Positions 3,101 to 43,383 of a DNA stretch of 43,383 nt are shown piece by piece (the first letter of the stretch is position 1; every line of letters begins with the position of its first letter). The notes under the pieces were generated by a model. It was not told where the DNA came from and did not search any database. It was given only the letters and a program-made list of their open reading frames with translations. Source of the DNA: a virus. Where the stretch lies: IMG/VR virus record IMGVR_UViG_3300048838_000169, positions 1-43,383 of that record. The stretch is one strand, 5' to 3'. Made by a program: the position numbers and the translations under genes.

Positions 3101-3380
3101 CGTTTTTTGTCAGCAGGAAGAAGAATTGATTGCTAATTATATGGGTGAAAAAGCAACAGGAGGCTATCACCAAAGTTGGGATTGGTTAATGCCCGTTGTG
3201 GTAAAAATTAACTCAAATGGCTTTTTCTTCTTTTGGGAAGATTATGTTGTTAGAATATGCCGTTGGAGAGACGGGTCTGGTAGTATTAGCAAAAAAAGTT
3301 TTTTAAAAGGAGAAGATGCTTTTAAAACCGTATATAAATGTGTAGTTGAATTTTTAAAAGAATGTTATCCTGTCTCTTAA
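3033..3380 (+). CDS. hypothetical cassette protein, 115 aa, with attC-encoded N-terminus
   Basis: The conserved part runs from about residue 31 (LIANYMGEK...YHQSWDWLMPVVVKI). This matches small uncharacterised Bacteroidota phage/plasmid proteins of the form FMGxK...YHKSWDWLMPVVEKI. The first 20 codons (MNKSKKLSNTQKP...) lie in the preceding attC-like site, and the crossover GTTACC falls at codon 20/21, so the start was supplied by the neighbouring cassette end. No good ATG lies between the junction and the conserved part except Met-36 inside FMG/YMG. Confidence 0.65.
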   Translation: MNKSKKLSNTQKPANCGYTVLPAVFCQQEEELIANYMGEKATGGYHQSWDWLMPVVVKINSNGFFFFWEDYVVRICRWRDGSGSISKKSFLKGEDAFKTVYKCVVEFLKECYPVS

Positions 3381-3523
3381 AATGGCAGGTAACGGCTACG
3401 GCTATGTGCAGTAGCGGATTTGAAACACAAAACTTAAAATAACAGATAAATTATGATAGTAGAACAAATGTTGAAGAACGCACAAACACCGCTATTGCAT
3501 ATAGCCGATGTTAGCGGTAGTGC
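3379..3523 (+). repeat. long attC-like site with a start codon in the loop
   Basis: R'' AAAATGGCAGGTAAC (3379-3393) complements 14 of 15 bases of its cassette start GTTACCTGCCGTTTT (3092-3106). L'' CGGCTATGTGCAGTAGCGG (3399-3417) pairs with L' CCGCTATTGCATATAGCCG (3489-3507) at 17 of 19 positions, both exceptions being C/T. The next R' GTTAGCGGTAGTGC starts at 3510. The 71-nt loop carries ATG 3453, spaced 36 nt from GATTT exactly as in the site at 2964-3100. Confidence 0.7.
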
Positions 3524-4244
3524 TTTATTTCAAGGCGATTGTTTAGATATTATGCCTTTGATACCTGATAAATCGGTTCAGTTGATTTTGGCTGATTTGC
3601 CATACGGAACGACCGCTTGTAAATGGGACAGTATAATTGATTTGGATTTACTTTGGAAACAATACAAACGAATTATAAAAGATAACGGAGCAATAGTATT
3701 AACAGCTTCACAACCATTTACGACTAAATTGATTAGCAGTAATTACGAAATGTTTGGGTATGAAATTATTTGGCAAAAAGAAAGACCTACAAATTTTATG
3801 TTAGGTAAAAAACAAATATTAAAGTATCACGAAAATATTTTAGTATTTTATAAACAGCAACCAATTTACAACCCTGTATTAGAAGATAAACCTATTGAAA
3901 ATAAGCGTAAAAATAAACCAAGAAAAATGACAAATGCCGTTTATGGAATAAATGAGGGATTGAAATATGCAGAAAGGACTGAAAATGGAGGCATAAAAGA
4001 TTGGAATTATCCGCATTCAATACAATATTTTAGTATGGAAAGAGGATTGCACCCAACCAAAAAACCTTTGGAACTTATGAAATATTTAATATCCACTTAT
4101 ACCAACGAAAACGATATGGTATTAGACAATACAATGGGGAGTGGAACGACTTGTTTAGCAGCCAAAGAACTGAACCGTAAATTTATCGGAATAGAAAAGG
4201 AAGCTAATTATTATGAAATTGCTTGTCGGAGGTGCGGTTTTTAG
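3453..4244 (+). CDS. beta-class DNA methyltransferase (N6-adenine or N4-cytosine)
   Basis: Catalytic motif IV DLPYG is at residues 48-52 and the SAM-binding motif I DNTMGSGTT at about 225-233. Motif IV before motif I is the beta-class order. HPTKKPLELMKYLI precedes motif I, as in phage and restriction-system MTases. Likely role: methylate phage DNA against host restriction; no cognate nuclease gene is nearby. The first 19 codons come from the preceding attC-like arm and the cassette begins at Val-20 (GTTAGC). The conserved fold starts at ALFQGDCLDIM, so the N-terminal 20 or so residues are an extension. Target sequence cannot be told. Confidence 0.88.
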   Translation: MIVEQMLKNAQTPLLHIADVSGSALFQGDCLDIMPLIPDKSVQLILADLPYGTTACKWDSIIDLDLLWKQYKRIIKDNGAIVLTASQPFTTKLISSNYEMFGYEIIWQKERPTNFMLGKKQILKYHENILVFYKQQPIYNPVLEDKPIENKRKNKPRKMTNAVYGINEGLKYAERTENGGIKDWNYPHSIQYFSMERGLHPTKKPLELMKYLISTYTNENDMVLDNTMGSGTTCLAAKELNRKFIGIEKEANYYEIACRRCGF

Positions 4245-4304
4245 CATTACCGCTAACGCCCGTATAAACCATCGTTTTAATGTGGTTTATACCTTGTTAT
4301 AGCC
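4244..4304 (+). repeat. compact attC-like site after the beta-class MTase
   Basis: R'' GCATTACCGCTAAC (4244-4257) is complementary at 13 of 14 bases to the start of its own cassette (3510-3523). The core has arms GTATAAACCA / TGGTTTATAC around a loop with CGTTTTAATG (4273-4282), then R' GTTATAGCC (4296-4304). The core from TAACGCCCG to TTTATAC is identical to that of the site at 5299-5354. Confidence 0.72.
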
Positions 4305-4361
4305 AGTACGGTTTATTAAGCATAAAACTTTAATCGAAGAACTAAAAAAAGAATTTAAAAA

Positions 4362-5294
4362 ATGAGCGTGGGAAAAGAAAAAATAAATGTATTGAGTTTG
4401 TTTGATGGTATTAGCTGTGGGCAGATTGCATTAGAACGAGCTGGAATAAAAGTGGGAAATTACTTTGCTTCTGAAATTGATGAGTATGCTATTGGAATGT
4501 GTAAAAATAATTACCCAAATACAAAACACATAGGAAGTGTATTAGATGTAAAAGCGAGTGATTTACCAAAAATTGATTTACTTATTGGTGGTAGCCCTTG
4601 CCAAGATTTAAGCATAAGTAAAAAGGATGGTAAAGGACTTGATGGGGATAAGAGTGGCTTGTTTTGGGAATATGTAAGATTGAAAAATGAATTGAACCCA
4701 GAATACTTTTTATTAGAGAATGTGAAAAATAAATGGGCTGATGAAATGACAAAAGCCATAGGAGTTGAGCCTATTGAAATAAATTCTGCTGATTTTTGCG
4801 GTGCTAATAGACCAAGATTATATTGGACAAATATACCTATTGGTAAATGGGAAAAGAAAGATATTGTTATTTCCGATATACTTTTTGATGATAGAAATAA
4901 AATATGTAGCGAATACATATTAACAAAAGAACTTTCAAATGAAAGATTAAATAAATGTAATCAAATTGGATTTGTAAAGAAAAACCGACAAGGGAAAAGA
5001 ATTTATGATATAAATGGAAAACACGCTTGTTTAACTGGTAGTAGAGATGCGGGTGGATATTTAACTAATTATATTTATGATGGGAAAATTTGCAGAGAAT
5101 TAAGTGTAACAGAGTGCGAAAGACTACAAACAATACCTGATGGATACACAAAAGGATTTAGTGATACACAAAGATTTAAAGCAATAGGAAATGGATGGAC
5201 TGTGGATGTGATTTCTTTTATTTTTTCTTTTTTGAGAGGGGAAAATTTTTTAAATTATTTTTCTCACGAAAGTTCAATCGAAGCACAAAAGTAG
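4362..5294 (+). CDS. dcm: C5-cytosine DNA methyltransferase
   Basis: Motif I FDGISCGQ (residues 14-21), catalytic motif IV GGSPCQDLS with Cys-80, motif VI LLENV (117-121), motif VIII ANRPRLYWTNI, and C-terminal motifs IX/X including RELSVTECERLQTIPDGYT and FKAIGNGWTVDV. At 310 aa it is short but has all key motifs. SPCQDLS and LSLFDGISCGQ are typical of phage enzymes related to the DNMT3-type group. Likely protects phage DNA from host restriction. It is alone in a cassette whose ends, GTTATAGCC (4296) and GGCTATAAC (5299), are perfectly complementary. About 57 bases of AT-rich leader lie between the junction and the ATG. Confidence 0.9.
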   Translation: MSVGKEKINVLSLFDGISCGQIALERAGIKVGNYFASEIDEYAIGMCKNNYPNTKHIGSVLDVKASDLPKIDLLIGGSPCQDLSISKKDGKGLDGDKSGLFWEYVRLKNELNPEYFLLENVKNKWADEMTKAIGVEPIEINSADFCGANRPRLYWTNIPIGKWEKKDIVISDILFDDRNKICSEYILTKELSNERLNKCNQIGFVKKNRQGKRIYDINGKHACLTGSRDAGGYLTNYIYDGKICRELSVTECERLQTIPDGYTKGFSDTQRFKAIGNGWTVDVISFIFSFLRGENFLNYFSHESSIEAQK

Positions 5295-14378: not shown

Positions 14379-14560
14379 ATGACATGAGGGATTTAATCCA
14401 ATACTTTAGGGAGCAGGTTAAGTTGGTGCAAACATCCCGACTTCAAATAATTGTCTGTCCAGTGTCGGAGTTGGAAAATATTCTCTACCTTCTTGAGAAG
14501 GGATATTGGGAGATAAAACTAGAGCTACTCCCGAACAACCTAATCAAAATAATTTTTTAA
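14375..14560 (+). CDS. small hypothetical protein, 61 aa
   Basis: ATG 14375 (MNDMRDLIQYFREQVK) overlaps the preceding stop by 4 bases; an upstream GTG at 14351 is less likely. Alpha/beta, ending in alternating hydrophobic residues (IKLELLPNNLIKIIF). Last gene before a strong terminator. Confidence 0.55.
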   Translation: MNDMRDLIQYFREQVKLVQTSRLQIIVCPVSELENILYLLEKGYWEIKLELLPNNLIKIIF

Positions 14561-14585
14561 GCTGCCTTCGGGCGGCTTTTTTTTT
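14560..14585 (+). terminator. Rho-independent terminator ending the recombination operon
   Basis: Stem AGCTGCC / GGCGGCT around a stable TTCG tetraloop (14567-14570), followed by nine T. Confidence 0.93.
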
Positions 14586-14592
14586 GGTTAAT

Positions 14593-14901
14593 GTGTACTA
14601 ATTTTAATCAATGTGTACTAATGTGTACTAAAAAAGTACTGTGATAATCAGTTAATTAAGGCTTAAAATCGCTAAGTACACATTTATCCCCTATACTGTA
14701 ATATACGTGATATATTTTGTGTGTGTGTAATTTCGTTTTTTTACACACACACATTTTTTACCGCTATATTTTTTTGAGATAAAAAAAAGTGTACTATTAG
14801 CCTTTTTTATAGCTAACTACTTGATTATCACAGTACAAAAAAAGTACACATTACAGTACATATTAGGGTAAATTCAGTACACATTTAAAATAAAGTGTAC
14901 T
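14593..14901. other. candidate replication origin with iterons and palindromes
   Basis: Non-coding AT-rich region between a terminator and the replication operon. GTGTACT occurs at 14593, 14613, 14623, 14789 and 14895, and its complement AGTACAC at 14675, 14843 and 14876, with partial copies at 14635 and 14855. A 15-bp perfect inverted repeat, GTACTGTGATAATCA (14636-14650) / 14822-14836, encloses a 13-bp perfect hairpin TGTGTGTGTGTAA (14718-14730) / 14741-14753. Iterons arranged symmetrically around a central hairpin and placed before the primase gene suggest an origin. The binder could be the DnaA-like protein or the primase. Confidence 0.65.
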
Positions 14902-14906
14902 TTAGG

Positions 14907-14935
14907 TTGATTTTAAAAATAATTGCTTAGATTTG
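14907..14935 (+). promoter_or_regulatory. promoter of the replication operon
   Basis: TTG 14907-14909, 18-nt spacer, TAGATTTG 14928-14935. It lies directly after the last iteron, so iteron binding could regulate it. A 7-codon frame (MKQTQQF, 14955-14978) lies in the leader. Confidence 0.7.
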
Positions 14936-14984
14936 TAGAAGCACAATAAAAGACATGAAACAAACACAACAATTTTAAAAATAT

Positions 14985-15049
14985 TAGCTATTCATTAAGG
15001 GTAAAAAATTCCTCTGGTCTTTTTTTGTGCCTCCCTTATTGGATAGCTA
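14985..15049 (+). promoter_or_regulatory. leader hairpin upstream of the replication genes
   Basis: TAGCTATTCATTAAGGG (14985-15001) pairs with CCCTTATTGGATAGCTA (15033-15049) at 15 of 17 positions. It lies between the short leader frame and the first gene, so it could act as a regulatory or mRNA-stabilising structure. No riboswitch class recognised. Confidence 0.4.
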
Positions 15050-40956: not shown

Positions 40957-41119
40957 CGTACTAACAAGTTTAAAGTCAATAATTGGCGTAGTTGCTATGA
41001 CTACTTATGCGATGGAGCATGAGAAGGTAGCGTTTTGGACGCTTGTAGGAGGGGCAATGCTTGACGAAGCGGCAAAGCTTCTTAAAAAAGAAATTAATCC
41101 AAAAGAAGAAATAAATTAA
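40928..41119 (+). CDS. putative holin-like small membrane protein, 63 aa
   Basis: Starts MSKTIKRVINVLTSLKS, then a hydrophobic region (IIGVVAMTTYAM and FWTLVGGAMLDEA) and a basic/acidic tail (KKEINPKEEIN). With its neighbour it may form a holin pair or holin/antiholin. Followed by a terminator. Call from size, topology and place. Confidence 0.5.
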   Translation: MSKTIKRVINVLTSLKSIIGVVAMTTYAMEHEKVAFWTLVGGAMLDEAAKLLKKEINPKEEIN

Positions 41120-41157
41120 TAGCTTATCAACCAGTAAGAGTTGAAAAAGTATAAGAA

Positions 41158-41193
41158 GCCGTTTAGTTAATTCTAAGCGGTTTTTGTTTTTTT
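41158..41193 (+). terminator. late-operon terminator
   Basis: Stem CCGTTTAG (41159-41166) / CTAAGCGG (41173-41180) with a T-rich tail. The following 41194-41334 is AT-rich with no gene. It contains an orphan junction-like GTTACCATTAG at 41287 preceded by TATACGGT, perhaps a remnant attC right arm. Confidence 0.85.
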
Positions 41194-41334
41194 AACATTT
41201 AAATTTTGTCAATTGGGATTAAAATATACTTTGAAAATACTACTGAAATTTGGTTAAACACTTAATAGCTATACGCTTTATACGGTGTTACCATTAGTAC
41301 GGTAAAATAAGAACGAAACTTTTTTAATATTCCT

Positions 41335-41364
41335 TTTGTATTTACAATTTATTTACTATATTTA
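41335..41364 (+). promoter_or_regulatory. promoter of the structured RNA
   Basis: TTTG 41335-41338, 18-nt spacer, TATATTTA 41357-41364. Transcription would begin about 5-7 bases on, at the start of the closing stem of the RNA (41368). Confidence 0.65.
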
Positions 41365-41367
41365 CAT

Positions 41368-41623
41368 AAGTTCTTTGAGTAAACGAAACCGAAACCGTGA
41401 GAGCAACAAGATGCGGTCTATGGAGGCGAGAGTTATGAAGGTTATACGCTATATAAGATAGGGCAAAAGTACGCTTTAGGAAAATAAAGCCCGAACACTT
41501 GGCGAAGTGTTCAACTTGATTAAACGGTGGTATCATAGTTATGCAGGAATTAAAACCGATGCACTGAAAAGAATGTGTTGACAAGCTTGATAACAGGCGA
41601 CTGGGCTGATACTCAAAGAACTT
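41368..41623 (+). ncRNA. structured RNA, about 256 nt, unknown class
   Basis: The ends AAGTTCTTTGAGTA (41368-41381) and TACTCAAAGAACTT (41610-41623) are perfect 14-bp complements that close the molecule. Inside are a perfect 8-bp hairpin GAACACTT/AAGTGTTC with GGCG loop (41493-41512) and GCTTTA/TAAAGC (41473-41490), itself inside GGGC (41461-41464)/GCCC (41489-41492), plus GNRA-like and purine-rich linkers. No + strand frame fills it and base composition is richer in G than the neighbours. A promoter sits just upstream and an RHH gene 15 nt downstream. It does not look like tmRNA, RNase P RNA, 6S or a known riboswitch. It may be a free RNA or a 5' UTR structure. Confidence 0.65.
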
Positions 41624-41638
41624 TATTATTTAAAAAAT

Positions 41639-41788
41639 ATGGCAAAAACTAAAAAAGTAACGGTATCAATGACCGAAGAAACTAAACAAAAAGCAGTTAA
41701 TTTATCTGTTTTGGTGTTAGGAACTGAAAATATAAGCGCTTACATAAGTTACTTAATAAACAAAGCTCATTTAGAAGCACAGAAGTAG
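41639..41788 (+). CDS. ribbon-helix-helix DNA-binding protein, 49 aa
   Basis: ATG 41639, TAG 41786-41788. A basic lead MAKTKKVTVSMTEETKQ gives the beta strand (KKVTVSM) followed by two helices (EETKQKAVNLSVLVL and ISAYISYLINKAHLE): the Arc/CopG ribbon-helix-helix plan. Probably a repressor or antitoxin-like regulator; no toxin neighbour is obvious. It lies directly downstream of the structured RNA and may regulate or be regulated by it. Confidence 0.7.
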   Translation: MAKTKKVTVSMTEETKQKAVNLSVLVLGTENISAYISYLINKAHLEAQK

Positions 41789-41840
41789 TATTAACAGCTG
41801 AGAAGGTGGGGAGTGTTTGGATAATTAAAACTAAAACAAG

Positions 41841-41960
41841 ATGAAAACAAAAACAACAGTAAAACAATCCAAAATTATAAACAGCTGGATAATAGAAGCG
41901 GCAAAATCGTATAATTTGAAATATGACGATATAAAAGACGACCAAATAATTAGCTTTTAA
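41841..41960 (+). CDS. small hypothetical protein, 39 aa
   Basis: ATG 41841, TAA 41958-41960. Begins MKTKTTVKQSKIINSWI; contains a helix and an acidic end (YDDIKDDQIISF). Leader ACTAAAACAAGATG resembles other starts here. It ends 4 bases before the attC-like site at 41965. No family. Confidence 0.5.
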   Translation: MKTKTTVKQSKIINSWIIEAAKSYNLKYDDIKDDQIISF

Positions 41961-41964
41961 AATA

Positions 41965-42065
41965 GCATATAACTGTTTGCAGGTAGGCGATAGTGCCGCT
42001 TATTACAAAATTTAAATCAAAACAATCAGGCTCATAGCGGCATTTTGCCTACCTGCTGTTAGGTG
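41965..42065 (+). repeat. attC-like site
   Basis: R'' GCATATAAC (41965-41973). L'' GCAGGTAGGCGATAGTGCCGCT (41979-42000, 22 nt with spacing as listed) pairs with L' AGCGGCATTTTGCCTACCTGC (42036-42056), with two mismatches and one unpaired base. R' GTTAGGTG (42058-42065) fits GTTRRRY exactly over its first seven bases. The loop is 35 nt and has no ATG. The palindrome and the unpaired base are strong attC features. Confidence 0.72.
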
Positions 42066-42445
42066 TCTGTAAAAAATAAATTTAGCGTGGGCAATTAAAC
42101 AATTTACAAAATGACAACAGAAAGAAGAAATGAAATTGATAAAATCGTGAAAGAATTATCATTAGAATTTAAAGAAAATGCTTCATTTGGAGATGGAAAT
42201 TTCGGAGTATTATATTTATCATGCGATGTGAAAAATGTTAATTTTCAAATATCGCTAGAAGCAAATAGAGAAACATTTAAGCACATGATTTTATCAATGA
42301 TGAATGCAAGTACAGGTGTTGCCGAAGATATAATTGATGTAGTGGAAAATCATTATATGGGTAAAGACCCTTTAAATCTTAAAATGATAGCAGGATGATT
42401 GTTAGTGTGGGTGCGGTGGGAAATTTATTTTTTATTGTGCCTAAC
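42058..42445 (+). mobile_element. single-gene cassette with extended complementary ends
   Basis: The cassette starts GTTAGGTGTCTGTAAAAAAT and ends with CCTAAC at 42440-42445. The ends complement beyond the core: AAATTTATTTTTTA (42421-42434) is the exact reverse complement of 42070-42083. It holds one gene (42111-42398). This is the clearest single cassette on the right side of the array. Confidence 0.65.
42111..42398 (+). CDS. hypothetical cassette protein, 95 aa
   Basis: Starts MTTERRNEIDKIVKEL. Alpha/beta: N-terminal helix, strands FGVLYLSCDVKNVNFQISLE, then helices ending VVENHYMGKDPLNL. No recognised family. It fills the cassette 42058-42445, as the only gene. Confidence 0.6.
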   Translation: MTTERRNEIDKIVKELSLEFKENASFGDGNFGVLYLSCDVKNVNFQISLEANRETFKHMILSMMNASTGVAEDIIDVVENHYMGKDPLNLKMIAG

Positions 42446-42510
42446 ATTGAAATAACTGCTAGTCCGAAGGATTGCAGTTATGGAATGTTATACGCCGTTT
42501 TAATGGCGTA
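42437..42510 (+). repeat. compact attC-like site with adjacent hairpin
   Basis: R'' CCTAAC (42440-42445). L'' ATAACTGCTAGTCC (42452-42465) pairs with L' GGATTGCAGTTAT (42469-42481) around a short GAA loop. R' GTTATACGCC is at 42487-42496. Directly after it TACGCC (42491-42496) and GGCGTA (42505-42510) form another hairpin whose loop context CGTTTTAATG also occurs in the two sites at 4273 and 5323. It may be a composite of two sites. Confidence 0.6.
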
Positions 42511-42536
42511 CGATTAACCACCTAAAACTAAATGAT

Positions 42537-42734
42537 ATGAAAACAAAAGAACAAATCGCCGAAATGGCGGAGAGGGAATATCCAATAGGAACTAAAAAGA
42601 CTATGGAATTATTGAAAGAAGGCTTCATTAACGGCTATCAAACAGCTCAGAAGGATATGAAGCAATGCCCAACTTGTAAAGCTTTAACAGACACTTGGGA
42701 TAATGATAAAGATGAACAATTTAATAACATTTAA
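42537..42734 (+). CDS. small protein with CxxC, 65 aa
   Basis: Starts MKTKEQIAEMAEREYPIG. Helical N-terminus (MELLKEGFINGYQTAQKD), then CPTCKAL, a possible half zinc-knuckle. This resembles small phage proteins that precede DUF551-type genes. Two bases separate it from the next gene. Confidence 0.65.
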   Translation: MKTKEQIAEMAEREYPIGTKKTMELLKEGFINGYQTAQKDMKQCPTCKALTDTWDNDKDEQFNNI

Positions 42735-42736
42735 GT

Positions 42737-43048
42737 ATGACTAAAAAAGAATTACTAAAAACATTTAGAGAATCTTTAGAAGGGCTATTTGCAGACAAAG
42801 AAGCGAAGGACGATAAAGAAATTCTTGAGTTTTATTTGGAAGTTTGTTGCACGATAGCAGAAACTTATGCAGAAGAAAAGTGGATTGATTTTAGGGATAA
42901 AAAACCTACTGAATACGGCAGATACCTAGTTTACCGATCAGGTTGTGACAAGATACAATTTGAAACTTGGAACAATACAGGGTGGGCGTACAGTAATAAC
43001 AATTGTACTCATTGGATGCCTTTACCGCAAAAACCTTTAATGTCTTAG
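42737..43048 (+). CDS. DUF551-like protein, 103 aa
   Basis: The C-terminal half (from KWIDFRDKKP, about residue 48) fits DUF551: KKPTEYGRYLVYR, a Trp-rich middle and HWMPLPQKP. DUF551 proteins are common in phages and prophages, function unknown. The N-terminal half is a charged helix. Bases 42941-43041 are repeated at 1-101. Confidence 0.75.
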   Translation: MTKKELLKTFRESLEGLFADKEAKDDKEILEFYLEVCCTIAETYAEEKWIDFRDKKPTEYGRYLVYRSGCDKIQFETWNNTGWAYSNNNCTHWMPLPQKPLMS

Positions 43049-43051
43049 ATT

Positions 43052-43246
43052 ATGAAGCTAAAAGTAACAGCAACAATAGAGGTAAATTCTACTTGGAACT
43101 CTTTAGATAAAGAGGAATTAGAATGGTTTACCGATTGTGTTTTAAACAATAAACAAGATACTATGTTAATCCTATATTCAAATGATATAGGAGATGAAAT
43201 AGGAAGTACAACAGCTTTTAAATATGAGATATTACCCAACAAATAA
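43052..43246 (+). CDS. hypothetical protein, 64 aa, missing from the other end allele
   Basis: Starts MKLKVTATIEVNSTWN, strand-rich N-terminus then EELEWFTDCVLNN and a strand-rich end. Located 3 bases after the DUF551-like gene. The corresponding place at 102-111 in the 5' copy has no such gene, so it is variable gene content. Confidence 0.65.
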   Translation: MKLKVTATIEVNSTWNSLDKEELEWFTDCVLNNKQDTMLILYSNDIGDEIGSTTAFKYEILPNK

Positions 43247-43282
43247 CTAAAAATTAGGATTAACAGTGTAAAATAAACGATT

Positions 43283-43383
43283 ATGAAAGAAGCCCTAAAT
43301 ATGAGATTAAATAAAGTAAAAGAAGAACTTGAAGTTTATAAACAACTAGAACAAGAGGCAAAAGAAAGGTACGAGAACTGTAA
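43283..43383 (+). CDS. small coiled-coil protein, 5' part (cut by window edge)
   Basis: Starts MKEALNMRLNKVKEEL; 33 complete codons before the end. It is the second allele of the gene at 112-276, with I7M and Q20K. Leader AAAATAAACGATTATG resembles the shared early-gene leader. Confidence 0.7.
   Translation, partial: MKEALNMRLNKVKEELEVYKQLEQEAKERYENC

Follow-up and report, generated by a model that had tools for sequence, protein, structure and literature searches.

In acr-aca operons, a variable cargo and a conserved repressor stand behind a shared promoter, and the usual Aca regulator is an HTH protein, whereas the regulator of the module described here appears to be ribbon-helix-helix (RHH)-like instead. 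Shared regulatory sequences have been used as markers of anti-defence genes (PMC11065993). Phage RNAs directed against host defences have also been reported: Racrs are RNA-based anti-CRISPRs of phages that consist of solitary CRISPR-repeat mimics (PMC10651486), and pseudo-ToxI of phage PhiTE is a non-coding RNA, built of ToxI-like repeats, that acts against a host defence by mimicry (PMC3475682). Finally, phage-borne clusters of attC sites (CALINs) are known, e.g. from Polaribacter phage P12002L (PMC9892861).

The locus compared here with these systems lies in a stretch of viral DNA of 43,383 nucleotides (IMG/VR record IMGVR_UViG_3300048838_000169, positions 1 to 43,383; hereafter the window). 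Its terminase is nearest to those of phages of Nonlabens (54%) and Riemerella (49%), from which the host is probably a flavobacterium. An earlier note on this DNA had described an unclassified RNA that follows the late terminator, has its own promoter, placed for a start at a perfect 14-bp closing stem, overlaps no plus-strand gene and ends 15 nt before an RHH gene, and the sequence analysis supports these points, the start being a predicted one. The upstream, late operon ends in a rho-independent terminator (41154-41191, plus strand) that has a stem of 13 pairs and then a run of Ts. Downstream of it, on the same strand, lies an exchangeable module (41283-41794) comprising a promoter (41335-41364), an orphan RNA without Rfam family (41368-41623; predicted transcript 5' end at 41369, length of about 255 nt) and a gene for a 49-aa RHH-like protein (41639-41788, ATG at 41639), which is conserved in phage loci and is the probable autorepressor of the module.

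As in acr-aca operons, small cargo of variable kind was found here, preceded by a shared promoter and followed by a conserved regulator gene, and the likeness extends to the repeats beside the conserved promoter that would serve as operators, the hypervariability of the cargo, the small regulator gene in last position and the mobility between unrelated phages; by its RHH-like sequence pattern and weak structure matches, the regulator is a candidate DNA-binding protein. The two differ in that the cargo here is an RNA, and anti-CRISPR activity of the cargoes of this module is conjecture. The novelty lies in the context, i.e. an RNA in a slot that elsewhere carries changing small protein genes.

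A second copy of the RNA, with 244 of 256 nucleotides identical (95.3%) and no indel, was found at positions 2717-2972 of IMG/VR contig 3300025839_000011 (IMGVR_UViG_3300025839_000011; L008). The module as a whole matches, at 92%, an otherwise different 93-kb phage contig: a blastn comparison with L191 returned window positions 41283-41794, the block around the L008 copy, with unrelated immediate flanks. Elsewhere in the two RNA-bearing contigs some genes are related, at lower identity.

The promoter is of the Bacteroidota type, with TTTG at 41335-41338, an 18-nt spacer and TATATTTA at 41357-41364 (plus strand). Eight homologous promoters could be aligned to it, each one ending in TAnnTTTG (8/8). 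Since this box spans positions -12 to -5 in F. psychrophilum (PMC9723704), transcription is predicted to start at 41369, at the base of the closing stem. Two 8-bp repeats with an 11-bp period, GTATTTAC-aat-TTATTTAC (41338-41356, plus strand), abut the -7 box and are the probable RHH operator. Both are present in nine of nine modules, spaced 11 bp and beside the -7 box, and in L068 both are altered together, from TTT to AAA, while the beta-strand of the L068 RHH protein differs too.

Nine modules, that of the window included, share this promoter. Between it and the RHH gene almost every phage carries a different small ORF (L004/L005, L007, L010, L064, L065 and L068, the last one very short), and two further cargo ORFs are joined to the RHH gene in L006 and L067, where the L067 contig ends before the promoter and the homology of L006 to the window begins only at the RHH ATG. 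With the exception of the L004/L005 pair, the cargo ORFs are mutually unrelated, with identities at or near noise level. Across the phages with the promoter and/or the RHH gene, the slot contains at least seven unrelated kinds of ORF in addition to this RNA; L066 encodes a more distant RHH homologue in a different arrangement. The RNA fills exactly the cargo slot, because L007 shares 41305-41372 and then 41639-41794 with the window, and it is precisely the RNA that is replaced between these two blocks.

The other cargo genes showed no match to a known anti-defence family, and PADLOC gave marginal matches for one cargo protein. The cargo protein of L010 (2793-2999) was assigned to phrog_20997 and has relatives in the Cellulophaga phages phiST, phi19:2 and phi13:1, so that this gene also occurs in phages without a detected RHH relative. 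DNA methyltransferase genes are located near several modules (Danklef, JQ, L006, L065, L008 and the window at 3453-5291), those of L006, L008 and L065 having been called by sequence reading and not by family search; such neighbours are consistent with an anti-defence region, yet they are common in phages.

Relatives of the RHH protein were identified by protein and alignment searches in ten IMG/VR loci, in Polaribacter phage Danklef and in Tenacibaculum phage JQ. The family was found in phages only and not in the bacterial genomes searched, one of these bacterial searches having been run without a positive control. None of the six Danklef records annotates the gene (L004 3228-3377, corresponding to MT732458.1 36566-36715), for which reason the module has been overlooked so far. 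The protein matched no Pfam family, and sequence searches returned no solved relative. Its AlphaFold2 model, computed as a monomer, has two helices after a strand-less N-terminal region (pLDDT 69); the strand of RHH proteins forms in the dimer only. Structure matches of this model in the PDB, all of them weak, include PutA, MazE-mt1, AtaR, TacA2, pCXC100 ParB and CdbA, which we take to be RHH-fold proteins. Taken together, the sequence pattern and these weak structure matches suggest that the 49-aa protein is likely an RHH protein.

The RHH gene and the promoter are constant, whereas other phages have exchanged what lies between them for unrelated protein genes. On these grounds the shared promoter is most likely under the control of the RHH protein, with the RNA as cargo, and we consider it probable that the element is indeed the cargo of the module. 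By the same pattern, a leader to which the RHH protein binds, as suggested in the earlier note, is less likely than the opposite arrangement; another of its suggestions, a packaging-type RNA, was unsupported. More generally, the element might be a structured 5' UTR of the RHH mRNA that acts in cis on the translation of RHH or on the stability of its mRNA, possibly as a target of the RHH protein itself, and would then not be a free RNA. The element is co-oriented with the RHH gene, ends 15 nt before its ATG and is without a terminator of its own, and a closing stem at the 5' end would shield the end of the mRNA; we nevertheless regard a cis-acting leader as unlikely, as in the other modules a protein ORF precedes the RHH gene and such a leader is absent, and as the RNA of L008 is whole although the RHH gene there lacks its start codon and first beta-strand.

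Within the element proper, the closing stem is formed by AAGTTCTTTGAGTA (41368-41381, plus strand; identical in L008) and its inverted-repeat partner TACTCAAAGAACTT (41610-41623, plus strand), and the two 11-mers of this stem lie more than 225 nt apart in both the window and L008. In place of the several internal perfect hairpins that had been described, the element contains a single one of at least 8 bp, namely GAACACTT-GGCG-AAGTGTTC with a GGCG loop (41493-41512, plus strand), which is invariant in L008. Read on the minus strand, this internal hairpin (41491-41514) is also terminator-like. A boxA or antitermination reading of GTTCTTTGA was dropped: flavobacterial rRNA leaders have AAGTTCATAGACATATTG, the likeness is partial and the position is inside the stem.

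The fold of the element shows a modest excess of stability over shuffles (z=-2.2), with an MFE of -66.9 kcal/mol in the window, and L008 folds differently. Six of the eight L008 substitutions at MFE-paired sites disrupt pairing; simulated mutants conserved the fold equally as well as the real window/L008 pair, leaving the interior without support; and the consensus fold of these two sequences, which are 95% identical and the only ones in the collections searched, comprises no compensatory pairs, the closing stem being invariant. The dependable structure within the element is limited to the closing stem and the 41493-41512 hairpin, because the MFE interior is contradicted by L008 and no compensatory change was observed.

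This non-conserved interior, and the fact that all other slots hold ORFs, would fit a non-functional filler, either a decayed cargo ORF or neutral DNA with a fortuitous inverted repeat. Such an origin is quite unlikely: when the 461-bp region was shuffled 3000 times with dinucleotides preserved, a perfect 14-bp repeat appeared just five times (approximately 0.2%), the element begins exactly at the predicted +1, its length is equal in both phages, with no indels and the 14-bp stem intact, and a comparison of the window with L008 revealed no conserved frame or frame remnant in any of the three frames. Two individual ORFs were also considered: an 80-aa minus-strand ORF (41342-41584) was rejected, its L008 homologue containing a stop codon, and coding by a 16-aa plus-strand micro-ORF (MRSMEARVMKVIRYIR) was unsupported, two differences altering one residue from Ala to Met. 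The divergence between the two copies bears on both sides. The RNA differs at 12 of 256 sites (4.7%), compared to 10 of 23.3 synonymous sites (43%) in the adjacent RHH gene (P=6e-7), a contrast that alone would mean strong constraint on the RNA. Recombination with a breakpoint between the RNA and the RHH gene would, however, account for it equally well, and the constraint argument is confounded because the stretch left of the promoter also differs by just 8.7%; the slow divergence of the RNA could reflect a recent exchange of promoter and RNA, which would suit a filler as well.

With respect to known RNA families, an Infernal search with Rfam 15, which the earlier note had proposed as a check, gave no match at gathering thresholds and none up to E=10 within the element. 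No covariance model of tmRNA, 6S, RNase P, introns, riboswitches, GOLLD/ROOL/OLE or retron RNAs matched the element, ARAGORN found nothing in it, and no reverse transcriptase-sized gene is present from 41119 to 43383. In view of these results it is very improbable that the element belongs, in diverged form, to one of the known phage or bacterial RNA classes (tmRNA, 6S, RNase P, group I intron, retron ncRNA, GOLLD/ROOL/OLE or prohead RNA), even though its paired ends and size are similar in outline to several of them.

Scans of viral contigs with patterns of the stem and of internal segments returned L008 as the sole real match, the others being chance matches as judged by their surroundings, and a genome-wide 17-mer scan gave no real homologue among the matches listed. 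A DNA search of 397 Flavobacteriaceae and 395 class-level genomes, with no positive control among bacterial genomes, revealed no homologue; a 31-nt match from this search was rejected as it lies inside a coding gene. A profile search of 396 order-level genomes gave four weak matches (21-23 bits), all within long open frames and likewise rejected, while the same profile recovered both known copies, and no others, from 18 phage loci. A plasmid search for the element gave no match.

Mimicry of a CRISPR repeat, for which the anti-defence-like slot and the Racr precedent (PMC10651486) would speak, is scarcely credible and is largely refuted for the repeats sampled, as 43 repeats from flavobacterial cas2 loci, compared in both orientations, showed no similarity above shuffles except one marginal 25-nt match, and as the element is far longer than one repeat. 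The element thus resembles Racrs as a phage-encoded non-coding RNA in an anti-defence-like context, but differs from them in its length of about 255 nt, its 14-bp closing stem and its dissimilarity to the flavobacterial repeats. With pseudo-ToxI it would share, if the role proposed below holds, the action of a phage non-coding RNA on host defence; unlike pseudo-ToxI it contains no tandem array of ToxI-like repeats, just two-copy repeats of 9-11 nt, and no Rfam match.

Returning to the RNA as module cargo, the best explanation of the whole, which we put forward at slightly less than an even chance, is an RNA gene carried by a small, exchangeable, self-regulated module, expressed early, shut off by the RHH protein and acting in trans. 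Upon infection, the host RNA polymerase would fire the promoter at once, and a start at 41369 would tie the 5' end of the transcript into the 14-bp stem. The RNA, whether as a separate molecule or after cleavage from the RHH mRNA at the stem, would accumulate early and act in trans, after which the RHH protein would bind the repeats and shut off the promoter, as Aca repressors do in acr-aca operons. Given the anti-defence-like behaviour of the slot, the most likely role of the RNA would be that of a decoy that binds, and thereby blocks, a host defence or a host factor. This proposal draws on the acr-aca-like design of the module and on the existence of phage anti-defence RNAs (PMC10651486, PMC3475682).

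An anti-defence function of the element itself is suggested only tentatively by this analysis, and we would sooner doubt than assert it. It is somewhat unlikely that the element represents a novel class of anti-defence RNAs of phages, related neither to CRISPR repeats nor to ToxI, from an RHH-autorepressed slot that otherwise holds protein inhibitors. If the slot is an anti-defence slot, the promoter repeats and the 49-aa RHH gene could serve as bait for small unannotated inhibitors encoded by flavobacterial phages, and the short list of phage RNAs with a known or suspected action against bacterial defences would gain one that does not mimic a CRISPR repeat.

CALINs resemble this module in their small exchangeable genes between attC-like palindromes, their occurrence in flavobacterial phages and the presence of DNA methyltransferases. 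They differ from it in that here the promoter and the RHH gene are constant and the inner cargo alone is swapped, and in that the window has lost the attC-like site directly downstream of the RHH gene; an integron integrase was found in neither the window nor the L008 contig. The first part of the L008 contig (1-6132) is a run of small ORFs between attC-like palindromes (TAAC...GTTA arms) resembling phage-borne CALINs (PMC9892861), and attC-like hairpins are located on both sides of its RNA module (2581-2642, z -4.5; 3143-3205, z -3.0). In the window, an attC-like hairpin, GCAGGTAGGC...GCCTACCTGC (41979-41988/42047-42056), with a second stem (z -3.1) is found between small downstream genes.

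Further repeats were observed elsewhere in the window. A 57-nt imperfect inverted repeat (14619-14675/14797-14853) with a perfect 13-bp TGTGTGTGTGTAA hairpin inside occupies an inter-ORF gap (14560-15025) and is a possible origin or regulatory element. A 17-bp perfect inverted repeat with a 39-nt loop (1794-1810/1850-1866) lies in a gene-poor stretch. Finally, an identical 101-bp repeat is present near the contig ends (1-101 and 42941-43041), the second copy within a DUF551-like gene, and reflects either a duplication or an assembly-end effect.
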